Assembly (NCBI GenBank): GCA_910586425.1
Contig: CAJUHL010000072.1
Span: 1-8,223, forward strand
DNA length: 8,223 nt
Source of the DNA: an uncultured Bacilli bacterium
Lineage (GTDB): Bacteria; Bacillota_I; Bacilli_A; RF39; UBA660
Direction: 5' to 3'
In this document: in pieces, positions 4,119-7,979 of the stretch
Layout of the letters: each line of letters begins with the position of its first letter
Position numbering within the stretch: position 1 is the stretch's first letter
Translations under genes and position numbers: made by a program
Notes under the pieces: generated by a model
What the model was told of the DNA's origin: nothing
Databases searched by the model: none
The model's input: only the letters and a program-made list of their open reading frames with translations

Positions 4119-4355
4119 TCAGTCCTTTTCTTTAGCTGGTACAAATTCGAGTAAATCTTCAATACGGCAGTCCAGAGCAGTACAGATCCTTGCCAGAACA
4201 GCAGTATCAAGCCTCGTAGCCTCATTGTTACAGTAATTATTAATCTGCGTTCTTTGCATCTCAGCCCTGTGAGCCAGTTTATTCTTGCTTATTCCTCTTT
4301 CCTTGAGCAATTCATCCAGTTTGATTTTAATATACCCATAGTCATACTCTTCCAT
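4119..4355 (-). CDS. Small XRE/Cro-type DNA-binding regulator, copy 1 (78 aa)
   Basis: This is a single-domain Cro/C1-type helix-turn-helix protein. Helix 1 is about residues 7-22 (GYIKIKLDELLKER), helices 2-3 form the HTH at about 24-45 (SKNKLAHRAEM, then QRTQINNYCN), and the helical end reads LARICTALDCRIEDLLEFVP. Such proteins bind operators as dimers and usually repress their own promoter. It is about 81% identical (59/73) to its neighbour at 4475-4723. Differences fall in and around the recognition helix (T36/S, N40/H, N43/S, N44/G). The ATG at 4355 is preferred because AAGGAG lies 9 bases upstream. An ATG at 4373 would add MKEWNI but would place that ribosome site at its own start. A 64-base operator-like repeat lies upstream (4393-4456). 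Confidence 0.9.
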   Translation of the reverse strand: MEEYDYGYIKIKLDELLKERGISKNKLAHRAEMQRTQINNYCNNEATRLDTAVLARICTALDCRIEDLLEFVPAKEKD

Positions 4356-4392
4356 AATATTCCACTCCTTCATGCTTTAATACCTGTATAGA

Positions 4393-4456: not shown

Positions 4457-4490
4457 ATCATGAGGGGAAGAAGATTATGAAGAACTAATT
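4457..4490 (+). pseudogene. Remnant of a duplicated ribosome site and gene start
   Basis: After copy A the sequence GAGGGGAAGAAGATT-ATGAAGAACTAATT (about 4461-4490) parallels the ribosome site and start of the gene at 4867 (GAAGGAGGAGAGGAC-ATGGAACAACTAATT). One base is missing after the ATG, so the remnant would read only M-K-N-stop. Similarity ends near 4490, marking the duplication junction. On the minus strand this remnant supplies the last codons (about ISSS-stop) of XRE copy 2. Confidence 0.6.
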
Positions 4491-4723
4491 TTTGTACTTT
4501 CTTTCGGCACAAATTCCAATAAATCTTCAATCTTACATCCCAGAGCCGTACAAAGCCTTGCCAGAACAGCAGTATCAAGCCTCGTGATTTCACCACTACA
4601 GTAATGATTAATTTGTGAACGCTGCATTTCAGCCCTGTGAGCCAATTTATTTTTGCTGAGTTTTTTAGCCTTTAGAAGCTGATCCAGTTTGATTTTTATA
4701 TATCCGTAGTCTTTTTCTTCCAT
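4475..4723 (-). CDS. Small XRE/Cro-type DNA-binding regulator, copy 2 (82 aa)
   Basis: It has the same single HTH domain as its neighbour: GYIKIKLDQLLKAK, then SKNKLAHRAEM and QRSQINHYCS as the DNA-reading helices, then LARLCTALGCKIEDLLEFVP. After the shared EFVP the C-termini differ (KESTKISSS here, AKEKD in copy 1). The last residues here are encoded by the antisense of a broken gene-start remnant, so this tail arose at the duplication junction. AGAGG lies about 6 bases before the ATG at 4723. The gene is divergent from the pair at 4867/5186. Its likely promoter (TATAAT on the minus strand, 4788-4783) is embedded in operator repeat B, which suggests autorepression and co-control of the divergent pair. 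This is inferred from layout and from the known behaviour of XRE repressors. Confidence 0.92.
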   Translation of the reverse strand: MEEKDYGYIKIKLDQLLKAKKLSKNKLAHRAEMQRSQINHYCSGEITRLDTAVLARLCTALGCKIEDLLEFVPKESTKISSS

Positions 4724-4776: not shown

Positions 4777-4806
4777 TTGACAATTATAGTGTAAGAAATC
4801 TAATAT
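4777..4806 (+). promoter_or_regulatory. Plus-strand promoter of the 4867/5186 pair
   Basis: A perfect TTGACA (4777-4782), an 18-base spacer and TAATAT (4801-4806) lead to the gene at 4867. The -10 and most of the spacer lie within operator repeat B, with the -10 overlapping the left inverted-repeat arm. A bound repressor should therefore block it. Confidence 0.6.
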
Positions 4807-4811
4807 ATAAA
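4783..4811 (-). promoter_or_regulatory. Minus-strand promoter of XRE copy 2
   Basis: Read on the minus strand, TTTATA (4811-4806), a 17-base spacer and a perfect TATAAT (4788-4783) lie about 60 bases upstream of the start at 4723. This promoter overlaps the plus-strand one face to face: its -10 abuts the TTGACA. Both sit inside the same operator repeat. Confidence 0.5.
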
Positions 4812-4848
4812 TATAAGTTCTTAGAAACTAGATTAGACTTCTTGCACA
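4785..4848. repeat. Operator/promoter repeat, copy B
   Basis: It matches copy A at 58 of 64 positions, 392 bases away. Its arms GTGTAAGAAATCTAAT (4789-4804) and ATTAGACTTCTTGCAC (4832-4847) are complementary at 14 of 16 positions, separated by 27 bases. The arms overlap both divergent promoters. It is the likely operator of one or both XRE proteins. Confidence 0.8.
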
Positions 4849-4866
4849 CCCGAAGGAGGAGAGGAC

Positions 4867-5199
4867 ATGGAACAACTAATTGATAAGTTACTGGAGATGG
4901 GGATGGGGCAATTTATGGATCATAGCCGACAAGACCTTATTATGACTGATGAGGTATACCTCAAGGACATAGAAGATGAGGGGGAGCTGGAACAGCGGTA
5001 TATGAGATTAGATTTGCCAGACAAGAAAAGAATCCTGATAAATGATTATATAGCCTGTGTAAAGACCTGTGATAATCGTTATTCAGACATTTCCTATATG
5101 GCTGGCATTAAAGATGCTGTAAGAATGTTTGTGTATTTGGGATTGCTAAAAGATTATGATTCGTCAGAACAGAAAGTAGGTGCGAATGGACAGGTTTGA
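4867..5199 (+). CDS. Unknown 110-aa helical protein, first of an overlapping pair
   Basis: I do not recognise it with certainty. It is an acidic, mainly helical small protein, with MEQLIDKLLEMGMGQF at the N-terminus and a C-terminal helix-rich segment NRYSDISYMAGIKDAVRMFVYLGLLKD. This layout, with a C-terminal Y-x2-G-x2-D-x2-R pattern, is common in short phage- and element-borne proteins often paired with small regulators. AAGGAGGAGAGG (4853-4864) provides a strong ribosome site before the ATG. The gene is transcribed divergently from XRE copy 2 under a promoter inside operator repeat B, so it is probably repressed by that protein. Its stop overlaps the start of the next gene by 14 bases. A broken copy of its start survives at 4477-4490. 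Confidence 0.87.
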   Translation: MEQLIDKLLEMGMGQFMDHSRQDLIMTDEVYLKDIEDEGELEQRYMRLDLPDKKRILINDYIACVKTCDNRYSDISYMAGIKDAVRMFVYLGLLKDYDSSEQKVGANGQV

Positions 5200-5539
5200 A
5201 AATCTTACCAGAAGAGAAAAAGAGAGACTGACTGAATTTGTCAAAGAAGCAATCTATTTGACTGAGGAAGAAAATGCTGTTATTGAGCATCAGATTCCTA
5301 TGACGCAGGAGCTTTTTGAACAATGTGTGGGGCATTGTGTGGAGATTGGGGCATATTTTCGGCTAAACTGCCTTTTGAATGAGTTTTCCTATTTTGCCGA
5401 TGAATATGTTAGAAAGATTGAGGATGAAGTGGAGAACAGCGATATTGAAATTCCTGAATCTACACCAGAGGAATTAGAAGCAAGCTGGCAGAGATTTCGT
5501 GCAAAGGTAAAGGCAAGATACGGGGAGGATGCAATATAG
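5186..5539 (+). CDS. Unknown 117-aa helical protein, second of an overlapping pair
   Basis: I do not recognise a family. It is helical and charged: MDRFENLTRREKERLTEFVKEA, then LTEEENAVIEHQIPMTQELFEQCVGHCVEIGAYF, then LNEFSYFADEYVRKIEDEVE, ending in a basic helix SWQRFRAKVKARYGEDAI. There is no membrane segment or signal. The ATG at 5186 is chosen because GTAGGTG (5175-5181) lies a few bases upstream and an overlap of 14 bases with the upstream stop allows translational coupling. A GTG at 5180 in the same frame would add two residues. A strong terminator follows the stop (5548-5585), so the pair 4867/5186 forms a complete two-gene unit controlled by the XRE operator. Such a unit could be a regulator-guarded toxin or helper pair, which is speculation. 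Confidence 0.87.
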   Translation: MDRFENLTRREKERLTEFVKEAIYLTEEENAVIEHQIPMTQELFEQCVGHCVEIGAYFRLNCLLNEFSYFADEYVRKIEDEVENSDIEIPESTPEELEASWQRFRAKVKARYGEDAI

Positions 5540-5547
5540 ACATACAG

Positions 5548-5585
5548 ATAGCTACTGATCCAGTGAGGTTGGTAGCTATTTTTAT
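5548..5585 (+). terminator. Terminator of the two-gene unit
   Basis: ATAGCTAC (5548-5555) pairs with GTAGCTAT (5572-5579). Five further pairs including G-U pairs extend the stem to a 6-base loop, and TTTTTATAG follows. It separates the 4867/5186 pair from the AbiH cassette. Confidence 0.85.
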
Positions 5586-5604
5586 AGTTTCAAAATTTTC
5601 ACCA

Positions 5605-5628
5605 TTACAAAAATGTTTTTATATGTAA
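5605..5628. repeat. Nested inverted repeat, possible operator of the AbiH cassette
   Basis: TTAC-AAAAA-TG-TTTTT-ata-TGTAA is an imperfect palindrome (outer TTACA 5605-5609 with TGTAA 5624-5628). It ends 6 bases upstream of the TTGACA at 5635, a plausible binding site for the XRE regulator encoded next. AT-richness makes chance palindromes likely, so confidence is low. Confidence 0.3.
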
Positions 5629-5634
5629 AATTAT

Positions 5635-5663
5635 TTGACAAAAGAAAATAATTATGTTATTCT
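5635..5663 (+). promoter_or_regulatory. Promoter of the XRE-membrane protein-AbiH cassette
   Basis: A perfect TTGACA (5635-5640), a 17-base spacer and TATTCT (5658-5663) lie directly before the ribosome site AGGAGGTGAT (5670-5679) and the GTG start at 5683. Transcription should begin about 5669-5671, leaving a leader of only about 12-14 bases that is essentially just the ribosome site. Confidence 0.75.
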
Positions 5664-5682
5664 TTTTGCAGGAGGTGATTAA

Positions 5683-6222
5683 GTGGAAAATAGGAATGAG
5701 GAAGAAATAATTTCTTTCCTACAAGATAATTTATCTTCTGTAAGAAAAATAGCGGGTTGGACAACAGAAGAATTTGGAGACAAAATAGGTGTTACTAAGC
5801 AGACCATTAGCAATTTGGAAAATAAAAAGACTGTTATGACTCGTACACAGTATATTGCTATTGGGGCAGTATTGAAATATGAAATTCCTAATAACAAAAA
5901 TAGTGAAGTTTTGGCATATGTAGTAAATATTTTACTTGATAATGATAAAAGCTATTCTGCTGAAGAAAGGAGGAAAATCAAAGAAAATATTGATATGCTA
6001 GCGATAGCTTCAATGGGGGGCATGAAAGGAAAGAAACTGACGGATTTTTCTGAAAAAATAGGAATAGCTTTAGTTGGAGCAGGTGTGGCAAGTATAGCAA
6101 GTGCAGGAGGTGTAATATCTGGTGTGGTGGCAGCAACAGCCGCCTCCACGGTGTGGCTTGGAGCAATTTTAGGGACAAAAGCAAATAAAAAAGTAAAAAA
6201 CAAGACAGATAAAAATAAGTAG
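5683..6222 (+). CDS. XRE regulator with hydrophobic glycine/alanine-rich C-terminus (179 aa)
   Basis: Residues about 17-70 form a Cro/C1-type helix-turn-helix, with TTEEFGDKIGVTKQTISNLEN as helices 2-3. A charged helical linker (about 88-120) follows. Residues about 126-164 are hydrophobic and rich in Gly/Ala/Ser (IGIALVGAGVASIASAGG and onwards), enough for one or two membrane-spanning helices. The protein ends in a strongly basic tail (KANKKVKNKTDKNK). A DNA-binding domain joined to a membrane segment would place it at the cytoplasmic face of the membrane, where it could link a membrane signal to transcription or act as part of the effector. The GTG start is set by a near-perfect ribosome site, AGGAGGTGAT. 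The next gene starts 12 bases after the stop, and its ribosome site overlaps that stop. Autoregulation is inferred. Confidence 0.92.
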   Translation: MENRNEEEIISFLQDNLSSVRKIAGWTTEEFGDKIGVTKQTISNLENKKTVMTRTQYIAIGAVLKYEIPNNKNSEVLAYVVNILLDNDKSYSAEERRKIKENIDMLAIASMGGMKGKKLTDFSEKIGIALVGAGVASIASAGGVISGVVAATAASTVWLGAILGTKANKKVKNKTDKNK

Positions 6223-6234
6223 GAGGACATAGCG

Positions 6235-6573
6235 ATGGAAAAAATAGTTTCAAAGGTAGCAGGCTTAGGTGTGCCTGGATTAATTTTGGTAGTTGCCATA
6301 TCAGCTACAGGGTTAGCTGGTGGAGCAGCAATAACGACAGCATTAGCAGCTATAGGTCCAGGTGGGATGATTGGTGGTATTGTCACATTGGGTGTAATTG
6401 CTTTATTATCAGAAGGCTTAACAGAGTATGGTTTTGATGCTATTTTTACAGGTGTTGTCAAAGAACTTTATAAAAGGGGAGAGAATAAAGCAAGTATATT
6501 AAGAAAAATTGAGAAATATCCAGTATCTAAAGGTCTTAAAAGAAAATTGAAAGAAGAGTTGGAAAAGGTATAA
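6235..6573 (+). CDS. Small glycine-rich membrane protein (112 aa)
   Basis: Residues about 8-58 are almost wholly hydrophobic and rich in glycine and alanine: VPGLILVVAISATGLAGGAA, then TTALAAIGPGGMIGGIVTLG and VIALL. This predicts two membrane helices around a GPGG turn, with glycine-zipper-like spacing. The C-terminal part (about 60-112) is soluble, helical and charged (EYGFDAIFTGVVKELYKRGE, SILRKIEKYPVSKGLKRKLKEELE). I do not know a named family. Together with the hydrophobic end of the upstream regulator it forms a membrane module beside AbiH. AGGAGG (6221-6226) overlaps the previous stop, so translation is probably coupled. A strong hairpin follows and separates it from abiH. It could be an effector that disturbs the membrane, a sensor or an anchor. 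This is inferred from composition only. Confidence 0.9.
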   Translation: MEKIVSKVAGLGVPGLILVVAISATGLAGGAAITTALAAIGPGGMIGGIVTLGVIALLSEGLTEYGFDAIFTGVVKELYKRGENKASILRKIEKYPVSKGLKRKLKEELEKV

Positions 6574-6581
6574 TCATAAAT

Positions 6582-6635
6582 ACTGGAAAGAATTTTTGAT
6601 ACATTGTTTGATAAAGATTCTTTCCAGTTTTGTTT
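6582..6635 (+). terminator. Strong hairpin with T tract inside the cassette, before abiH
   Basis: ACTGGAAAGAATTTTTG (6582-6598) pairs with TAAAGATTCTTTCCAGT (6612-6628) over 17 positions, 12 of them perfect outer pairs, around a 13-base loop. TTTTGTTT follows. It lies between the membrane-protein stop (6573) and the abiH start (6668), with no clear promoter after it. It should reduce or condition read-through into abiH. Confidence 0.8.
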
Positions 6636-6667
6636 GGAATAAATTGAACAAGAGAGGAAAATAGCGA

Positions 6668-7828
6668 ATGAATATTTTAGCAATTGGGAATGGATTCGAT
6701 TTAGCGCATGGATTACAGACTACCTATAAGGACTTTTTGAGGTTTACAGATGAATTTATGATTTATAAAACTGCAAAGGAAAATAGACAGGAGCTTGGTT
6801 GGAGTGATGCTGAAGATACTCGCTTTTACAAATATTTTATAAGTCTTTTCAATGAAAGTCAGAGAAGCAAGGATGCAAGGAAAATAGTTGAAGAATTTGA
6901 TATGCTAATCAGAGAAAATGTATGGCTGGAACATTTTAAGAATGCACAGATAGAAAATGGTTGGATTGATTTTGAAAGTGAGATTTCTAGGGTAATTCAG
7001 ACATTAGAGGAAGTACGCAAAATAGCAGATGATGCTTTAAAACAGGGAACAAGTAAAATTGAGTTAGATCGACGTCAGAAAGGAATATTACGATATGTAG
7101 GTGCTGGCGTGCAAGAAATTGAGGATGCTATTAGTATACCAAAGGAAAGAGGGCTGAAAGATTTAGATAGACTGATTAGATGTTTGGAAATATATCTGAG
7201 CGATTATGTCAATAATTATTCGGTGGAAAACACATTGCCAGATATTAAGAACCTTCCATATCTTGATAAGGTACTATCATTTAATTATACAAATACTTAC
7301 GAGAGATTATATAATAATCATTCATTTTTAGAATTTGATTATATTCATGGTAAAGCAGATATTAATAATACAGTAGATACCAATAATATGGTTTTGGGAA
7401 TTGATGAATATTTGAAGGGTGATGAGAAAAACGAAAATATAGAATTTATCGAATTTAAAAAGTTTTATCAGAGGATACATAAGGAAACAGGATGCTTATA
7501 TAGAAATTGGATTGGTGACATTAGATCAAATAAGAAAATAACAGAAATGATTGTATTATATGATGAAGCTGGCAAACCAACAAAAGCAACTAGAAAACAG
7601 GTAGATTTTCATAAACTTTTCATTTTTGGTCATTCTTTGGATGTTACGGATAAGGATGTGCTTAGAGATTTGATTTTAAATGATAATGTTCAAACCACGA
7701 TTTTCTATATGAATAAAAAAGACTACGGAAGAAAAATTATGAATTTAGTAAAAGTCATAGGACAAAATGAGCTTATTAGGAGAACTGGTGGAGAAACAAA
7801 AACCATATCATTTGAGAAAATAAAATAA
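6668..7828 (+). CDS. abiH: AbiH-family abortive phage infection protein (386 aa)
   Basis: The family call rests on the N-terminal signature MNILAIGNGFDLAHGLQTTYKDF (residues 1-23), the WIDFE motif (99-103), FNYTNTYERL (205-214), YIHG (225-228) and the C-terminal FIFGHSLDVTDKDVL (318-332). This is the typical AbiH order, and the length is in the usual range. AbiH proteins, first described in Lactococcus, stop phage multiplication by killing or arresting the infected cell. Their biochemistry was not well established to my knowledge. The motif series (GNGFD, FNYT, HG, GHSL-x3-D) recalls SIR2-like NAD-binding domains. It has no signal or membrane segment and is presumably cytoplasmic. GAGAGG (6652-6657) lies 10 bases before the ATG. 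Expression probably depends on read-through of the hairpin at 6582-6635. The symbol is family-level. Confidence 0.95.
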   Translation: MNILAIGNGFDLAHGLQTTYKDFLRFTDEFMIYKTAKENRQELGWSDAEDTRFYKYFISLFNESQRSKDARKIVEEFDMLIRENVWLEHFKNAQIENGWIDFESEISRVIQTLEEVRKIADDALKQGTSKIELDRRQKGILRYVGAGVQEIEDAISIPKERGLKDLDRLIRCLEIYLSDYVNNYSVENTLPDIKNLPYLDKVLSFNYTNTYERLYNNHSFLEFDYIHGKADINNTVDTNNMVLGIDEYLKGDEKNENIEFIEFKKFYQRIHKETGCLYRNWIGDIRSNKKITEMIVLYDEAGKPTKATRKQVDFHKLFIFGHSLDVTDKDVLRDLILNDNVQTTIFYMNKKDYGRKIMNLVKVIGQNELIRRTGGETKTISFEKIK

Positions 7829-7934
7829 TAAATGACAATATATTATATCTTGTTTTAGACATTATCCTGTTATATACTAAAATTGTACTGAGAAATTTTT
7901 GTTTTTAATCACCTTCTTTTTATCGTGAAATAAA

Positions 7935-7979
7935 CCATAGGATAGGTCAATAGAAATTGACTAATACCTATGGCTTTTT
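7935..7979 (+). terminator. Terminator of the AbiH cassette
   Basis: CCATAGG (7935-7941) pairs with CCTATGG (7967-7973). Inside it, GTCAAT (7946-7951) pairs with ATTGAC (7956-7961) around a 4-base loop, and CTTTTTG follows. It lies about 105 bases past the abiH stop. The stretch between (7829-7934) is AT-rich and shows nothing else. Confidence 0.85.

Follow-up and report, generated by a model that had tools for sequence, protein, structure and literature searches.

A proposed regulator and membrane-protein module followed by an AbiH gene with a predicted SIR2-like fold in an uncultured Bacilli bacterium

The AbiH family (PF14253) was described from Lactococcus lactis. An excerpt of an earlier study (PMC3506569) proposes that AbiH has predicted SIR2-superfamily enzymes as components, and passages of a second report (PMC12322248) describe AbiH as active against one phage genus in S. 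thermophilus, the rest of the construct not being stated there. The locus analysed here also resembles in part several SIR2-type defence systems, the dynamin-like LeoABC system, and Bunzi, PDC-M09 and PDC-M40. It lies in an 8,223-nt stretch from an uncultured Bacilli bacterium (contig CAJUHL010000072.1; the whole stretch is hereafter the window), in which an AbiH gene is preceded by genes for an XRE-type regulator (g1) and a small glycine-rich protein (g2), the three together being termed the cassette. This AbiH shares with the described family a full-length PF14253 match and the conserved segments, and differs in that it comes after regulator and membrane-protein genes.

A single relative with the same cassette was found, in a contig (L001) of the genome of an uncultured Eubacterium sp. 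(G001), and is the reference for the comparisons below. The features of the cassette and its borders are:

5546..5581, + strand: terminator-like hairpin ending the preceding transcription unit, from the scan, with a U-rich tail; largely retained in L001
5623..5641, no strand assigned: predicted g1 operator, a 19-bp imperfect palindrome ATGTAAAATTATTTGACAA over the -35 box; common to most g1-type promoters examined
5635..5663, + strand: promoter of g1-g2, TTGACA-17-TATTCT; TTGACA and spacing conserved in L001
5670..5675, + strand: ribosome-binding site of g1, AGGAGG, read from the sequence; conserved in L001
5683..6222, + strand: g1, XRE (HTH_3) protein of 179 aa with a glycine-rich hydrophobic C-terminus and a GTG start
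6235..6573, + strand: g2, 112 aa, predicted all-helical, glycine-rich, with two hydrophobic stretches and a basic helical C-terminus
6547..6574, + strand: candidate AbiH promoter TTGAAA-16-TATAAT overlapping the end of g2 (11/12; as a class not above chance)
6582..6628, + strand: conserved hairpin before AbiH, with 12-bp perfect arms, a 23-nt loop and a short U-rich tail, from folding and comparison with L001
6668..7828, + strand: AbiH (PF14253), 386 aa, predicted SIR2-like fold (predicted local distance difference test score, pLDDT, 79.9; pTM 0.80)
7935..7973, + strand: terminator-like hairpin followed by CTTTTT, after AbiH; not among the scan sites and outside the stretch shared with L001

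We tentatively favour, with confidence a little short of even, the reading that g1 and g2 form a self-regulated regulator and membrane-protein module whose partners are interchangeable and which a semi-independent, SIR2-like AbiH follows in this locus. Computation supports the genes, a conserved palindrome, a conserved hairpin, the predicted AbiH fold and the variety of partners. On this reading, g1 would bind the palindrome over its own -35 box and keep g1-g2 transcription low, and g2 would sit in the membrane as a helical hairpin. The hairpin before AbiH would let through part of the transcripts, keeping AbiH low, unless AbiH is transcribed from a promoter of its own. Infection or membrane damage would relieve the repression by g1, and AbiH, if functionally linked to g1-g2, would be the effector, a SIR2-type enzyme that stops phage production (abortive infection) by breakdown of nicotinamide adenine dinucleotide (NAD+) or ADP-ribosylation of a target. 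The pair g1-g2 would then be one case of a wider design combining a g1-type regulator, a small hydrophobic partner and a variable effector.

The first-pass annotation, made from the sequence alone, had proposed a self-contained unit of three same-strand genes with coupled starts. The three genes are borne out by their being called as open reading frames (ORFs) on one strand, all +, and by the ratios of non-synonymous to synonymous divergence (dN/dS) from L001 (0.15 for g1, 0.03 for g2 and 0.15 for AbiH), which indicate purifying selection on all of them. Coupling holds for g1 and g2, which are 12 nt apart, but not for AbiH, situated 94 nt after g2 and behind a hairpin. Whether the unit is self-contained is uncertain, because BLAST similarity to L001, in two pieces (4796-6989 and 7253-7851), begins at 4796 and brings along two small upstream genes that are also under purifying selection (dN/dS 0.11 and 0.11); the same five genes are present in L001.

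A motif search in 20 regions upstream of g1-type genes recovered a 19-bp palindrome of consensus TTGTCAAATaATTTGACAA with a log-likelihood of 141, compared with 28-41 in 8 shuffled sets, the real set having been searched with several widths and many starts and each shuffled set with one width and nine starts. The palindrome (TTGTCAAATNATTTGACAA) lies on the -35 box in most g1 promoters examined, the window copy being at 5623-5641. From a reading of the sites, one palindrome half is the TTGACA-like -35 of g1's own promoter in 18/20 loci, and the -35 of a facing promoter in L058 and L060. Because TTGACA is itself a promoter box, only the other half was scored, leaving each locus out in turn, against 128 control promoters with an exact TTGACA. 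Seventeen of the 20 loci fell within the top 4% of these controls (p 4e-11, a value not to be taken literally because the loci are related and the sites were chosen by score, being picked with the full model). Within the window the site at 5623-5641 alone stands out, with a score of 19.6; the next best, 10.3, falls within the shuffled maxima (mean 9.5, highest 12.7). Over all loci, best sites scoring at least 16 were at g1-type promoters, except in two AbiH loci, L105 (16.1) and L134 (18.9), the latter inside the AbiH match by coordinates. The palindrome also occurs in L119 and L151, more distant helix-turn-helix (HTH) relatives outside the training set.

Since the palindrome covers the g1 -35 box, autoregulation of g1 is predicted, through an operator that overlaps the promoter of g1 itself. 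In two streptococci, S. infantis and S. australis, g1 is divergent and the palindrome covers the -35 of the promoter facing the g2 operon, which would tie g1 to the regulation of g2 outside a shared operon. The palindrome also provides a simple DNA signature for finding further members. In L119 and L151, it is kept upstream of g1-HTH relatives with a different, PIN-like C-terminus, as judged by eye.

The first-pass description of g1 as a DNA-binding protein with a hydrophobic C-terminus stands. In Pfam, g1 scored 30.5 bits against HTH_3 (cut-off 23), aligned to just positions 4-35 of the 55 of the profile, and its tail is of borderline hydrophobicity (19-residue Kyte-Doolittle maximum of 1.86). 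There are 1144 relatives of g1 at E up to 1e-3, and four plasmid records and one phage record matched; similarity to RmrA, CapH and other PADLOC models was weak and chiefly over the HTH (best E 1.4e-6). The description of g2 as a small protein with two predicted glycine-zipper-like membrane helices likewise agrees with its strongly hydrophobic stretches (maximum of 2.21) and predicted all-helical model (pLDDT 78.7). Membrane insertion of g2, as well as of the g1 tail, may be expected. The 735 relatives of g2 at E up to 1e-3 form a conserved family outside Pfam and NCBIfam, no family of which matched g2 at E up to 1, and the favoured reading, if right, would be a first handle on it. A match of g2 to LeoBC in PADLOC was weak (E 0.046, 10.8 bits, residues 23-94), and a sequence search against solved structures gave nothing significant, the best hits being pore-forming proteins over the glycine-rich stretch (E 0.11). 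No plasmid or phage record matched g2 by tblastn at E up to 1e-5, and no phage record matched the cassette DNA; a distant g2 relative was detected by profile in a plasmid locus of L. lactis (L110).

Since g2 is small, hydrophobic and glycine-rich, and adjoins a g1 predicted to control the promoter, the two might instead be a toxin-antitoxin-like pair, in which g2 damages the membrane and g1 silences g2. We regard this as very doubtful: the weak resemblance to pore-forming proteins in the profile comparison falls short of significance, 61 of the 68 g2 loci of the pooled count described below lack g1, and a fusion of g2 with an Mrr nuclease domain exists in Moorena, so that no dedicated g1 partner is needed. 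The fused Moorena ORF (L011 6986-7945) has the g2-like domain followed by a C-terminal Mrr restriction-endonuclease domain by Pfam match; similar g2-Mrr ORFs, judged by sequence, are at L011 8425-9189 and L024 5300-8972.

Between g2 and AbiH there is an inverted repeat with perfect 12-bp arms (6582-6593/6617-6628), followed by UUUGUUUGG. This stretch folds with a z of -3.75 (0/200 shuffles were equally stable), and in comparison with L001 there are differences at 0/24 positions of the arms and 5/23 of the loop. Among 150 loci the pattern was confined to L001 and the copies that overlap it (L066, L070 and L074); it was absent from the viral collection searched. The hairpin is likely a leaky terminator or attenuator and, together with the 94-nt gap, indicates that AbiH is not translationally coupled to g2.

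A single promoter, and a terminator on each side, had also been proposed for the cassette. The -35 and spacing of the g1 promoter are kept in L001, but it is uncertain that this is the sole promoter, given the candidate before AbiH at 6547-6574. This is the best promoter-like site of the window, which contains 36 such sites against 34.1 expected by chance, and its -35 reads TTAAAA in L001. As for the terminators, hairpins with U-rich tails do lie at 5546-5581 and 7935-7973, but terminator-like sites are weak evidence because the window scan found 4 of them, 7935-7973 not being counted, against 3.8 expected by chance; additionally, folding of the 175 nt that follow AbiH is no more stable than that of shuffled sequences (z -0.68).

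The gap with its conserved hairpin and the candidate promoter both favour an alternative in which g1-g2 and an unrelated AbiH lie side by side on a mobile element, AbiH acting alone from its own promoter and g1-g2 being a separate self-regulated membrane module. We consider this quite possible, if on balance doubtful. The uneven divergence from L001 bears on it: synonymous divergence (dS) is 0.26 in g2, 0.44 in the first 110 residues of g1, 1.64 in the g1 tail and 1.50 in AbiH, and g2 is 99% identical in amino acids to its L001 counterpart, compared with 68% for AbiH. Because dS is so uneven, pieces of the cassette appear to have been swapped independently, with AbiH and the g1 tail altered but g2 retained, and the contrast between g2 and AbiH is as expected of unrelated neighbours. 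The alternative also gains from the occurrence of AbiH without g1 or g2 in 41/43 loci and from the activity reported in S. thermophilus, with the construct only partly stated. Nevertheless, order, spacing and hairpin are kept in L001 even though AbiH is only 68% identical. Additionally, equal longest contigs (31019 and 3059 bases), in a comparison leaving out one of the 120 g1 values, hint that g2 lies beside AbiH in two more cases, a weak hint because a third coincidence (759 bases) is too short for both genes. Positions 6000-6180 of the window, coding for the hydrophobic g1 tail, belong to the regions that differ most from L001 within the stretch common to both, while their flanks are highly conserved.

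The membership of AbiH in its family is clear, with 140.3 bits against PF14253 (cut-off 30.9) over profile positions 2-260 of 260; its match to the PADLOC AbiH model has an E of 1.7e-11 (42.2 bits). The segments GNGFDLAH, SFNYT, HG and GHSLD are conserved across 28 relatives, and N206 and H227 are invariant in the 28 aligned sequences. The order of these two residues, putative catalytic Asn and His of the NAD pocket, resembles that of SIR2 motifs. On the predicted model AbiH has a Rossmann-type SIR2 fold, closest to SIR2-type defence proteins, its best matches being SIR2-HerA, ThsA, DSR2, SPARSA and Avs5; a sequence search against solved structures returned unconvincing matches only (GYP1, E 0.005). 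AbiH thus belongs to PF14253, its model predicts the SIR2-type fold that had been proposed earlier, and it probably has an enzymatic activity, either NAD+ breakdown or ADP-ribosylation of a target. The window differs from the SIR2-type systems in that no HerA, Argonaute or other partner was found among the 10 ORFs compared with Pfam and the 4 compared with PADLOC. G001 has a further full-length AbiH match (C2), and a split one (C8) whose smaller part contains stop codons.

A search with a g2 profile, one genome per species, gave 63 loci plus two viral contigs, with relatives missed because the scan rests on two peptide patterns. According to record titles, g2 loci span Bacillota, Bacteroidales, cyanobacteria, Poribacteria, spirochaetes and Actinomyces. 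A pooled count over the loci collected omitted 18 loci as duplicates or shorter copies, those without a longer copy being the g2 locus L072 and L067-L069, further AbiH loci of G001 that have neither g1 nor g2. Several loci are cut at contig ends, and AbiH loci from genome searches have flanks of only 1.5 kb. In this count AbiH accompanies g2 in 2/68 loci and g1 in 2/25 (two of the 25, L119 and L151, being HTH-domain relatives with another C-terminus), and g1 accompanies AbiH in 2/43. The two are each time the window and L001, which are not independent because a homologous 3-kb stretch is common to both. In turn, g1 accompanies g2 in 7/68 loci (the window, L001, L038, L058, L059, L060 and L110). 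In the order to which G001 belongs, searches of 295 genomes detected AbiH in 33 and g2 in 4, both with E no higher than 1e-3, and g1 in 7 with E no higher than 1e-15, and G001 alone turned up in any two of these searches; g1 was found in 4/398 genomes of the G001 phylum and g2 in 2/22 of its genus.

In the loci examined the homologues thus lie mostly away from AbiH, the outcome that the first-pass annotation had itself named as refuting its suggested multi-component system, and a dedicated three-gene AbiH system is unlikely. In particular, it is improbable that AbiH activity requires g1 and g2 as sensors or causes of membrane damage: the cassette is kept in L001, and the combination of a regulator, a glycine-rich membrane protein and an effector recurs with other effectors, but the co-occurrence counts and the uncoupled AbiH speak against it. 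What stands of that suggestion is the arrangement of a regulator with a hydrophobic tail, a glycine-rich membrane protein and an effector, which recurs with BnzB, PDC-M09B and PDC-M40B but is not tied to AbiH. A literature search, in which g1 and g2 were not searched under names of their own, found no description of g1-g2-AbiH.

Compact operons headed by g1 carry g2, zinc-ribbon membrane proteins, BnzB (Bunzi), PDC-M09A/B or PDC-M40B. By script, the next same-strand gene lies at most 150 bp after g1 in 21/25 loci, and the products of these genes are strongly hydrophobic in 13/21 cases, against 75/235 ORFs of the same loci (p 0.007), a comparison set in which most neighbour genes are themselves included, with some spurious ORFs as well. 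The neighbour gene of L111, which the script missed owing to a longer antisense ORF, is taken from the record. A g1-type regulator heads PDC-M09A and PDC-M09B in genome G395 (L153/L117), and a glycine-zipper gene and PDC-M40B, after a Sau3AI gene, in a Paraclostridium plasmid (L111). Membrane proteins with cysteine pairs follow g1, twice with g2 next (L038, L110). The likeness to Bunzi, PDC-M09 and PDC-M40 is therefore that a g1-type regulator heads them in L152, L153/L117 and L111; the window differs in having AbiH as effector, and neither g1, g2 nor AbiH matches a BnzB or PDC model (for BnzB, in PADLOC at E up to 1). Furthermore, g2 adjoins MerR-type regulators in L004, L006 and L013, with PDC-M09B beside it in L006. 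The likeness to LeoABC is that g2 lies near LeoA/LeoBC-like dynamin genes in L021 and adjoins a dynamin-like gene in L009, the difference being that g2 itself matches LeoBC only at the E of 0.046 given above.

These partners raise the broader idea of a widespread modular defence chassis, in which a fixed g1 with its palindrome and small glycine-rich membrane proteins is loaded with AbiH, BnzB, PDC-M09B or PDC-M40B, and the membrane protein, with a membrane-tethered repressor, would detect infection at the cell envelope and set the effector free. We hold this to be unlikely, while giving it some weight; no description of such a chassis was found, and PDC-M09 and PDC-M40 were not mentioned in the one set of papers searched for them. 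Should the favoured reading be right, several separately named or candidate defence systems (AbiH, Bunzi, PDC-M09 and PDC-M40) would share one control module in some bacteria and in their phages and plasmids, and the palindrome would allow a direct test of whether the arming of abortive-infection effectors depends on a membrane-linked repressor.

Several results weigh against the reading of a self-regulated g1-g2 module with interchangeable partners followed by AbiH. The module is accompanied by AbiH solely in the window and L001, and g2 is mostly without g1. More tuning of the motif search went into the real set than into its shuffled counterparts, L116, L153 and L156, out of 20 loci, fail the half-site test, and a second palindrome, before AbiH, was sought in the window and not found. 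None of the Foldseek matches of AbiH reaches E 1e-3, and their TM-scores are low. In two viral contigs (L064 and L065, ca. 7001-7378) a g2 relative stands amid phage tail genes, outside any visible defence context. Finally, 146 genes near g2 matched 129 PADLOC families and 146 distant controls matched 154 (E up to 1e-10), so there is no enrichment of defence genes near g2. The two lists originally held 152 genes each, the controls being a random draw from 187, and six were dropped from each: four L001 and two L019 near genes, and, as controls, two from L001, L019:12287-13789, L019:950-1483, L045:1990-2451 and L037:1279-1662. HTH_3 (5), MerR_1 (3) and Dynamin_N (3) are among the commonest Pfam families near g2 and do not appear in the top 25 of the controls; of the five HTH_3 genes, four are probably g1 itself.

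Other arrangements were observed around these genes. In an Acutalibacteraceae phage (PV036426; L152 246-3011), a g1-type regulator, a glycine-rich 203-aa protein, a 115-aa protein and BnzB are encoded in one run. Conserved proteins directly after g1 in L038, L110, L113 and L114 carry HPFFGNQY close to the N-terminus, together with cysteine pairs and a hydrophobic stretch, and a g1-type operon is convergent to a SIR2 and HerA gene pair in L154 (695-5116). Poribacteria (L018, L020, L028 and L031) have a longer g2 with an N-terminal extension, followed by a gene for 276-284 aa that in L018 encodes a PhyH-type oxygenase. In the window itself, two tandem, closely alike small Cro/C1-type genes lie on the minus strand at 4119-4373 and 4475-4723, the second with a strong HTH_26 match.

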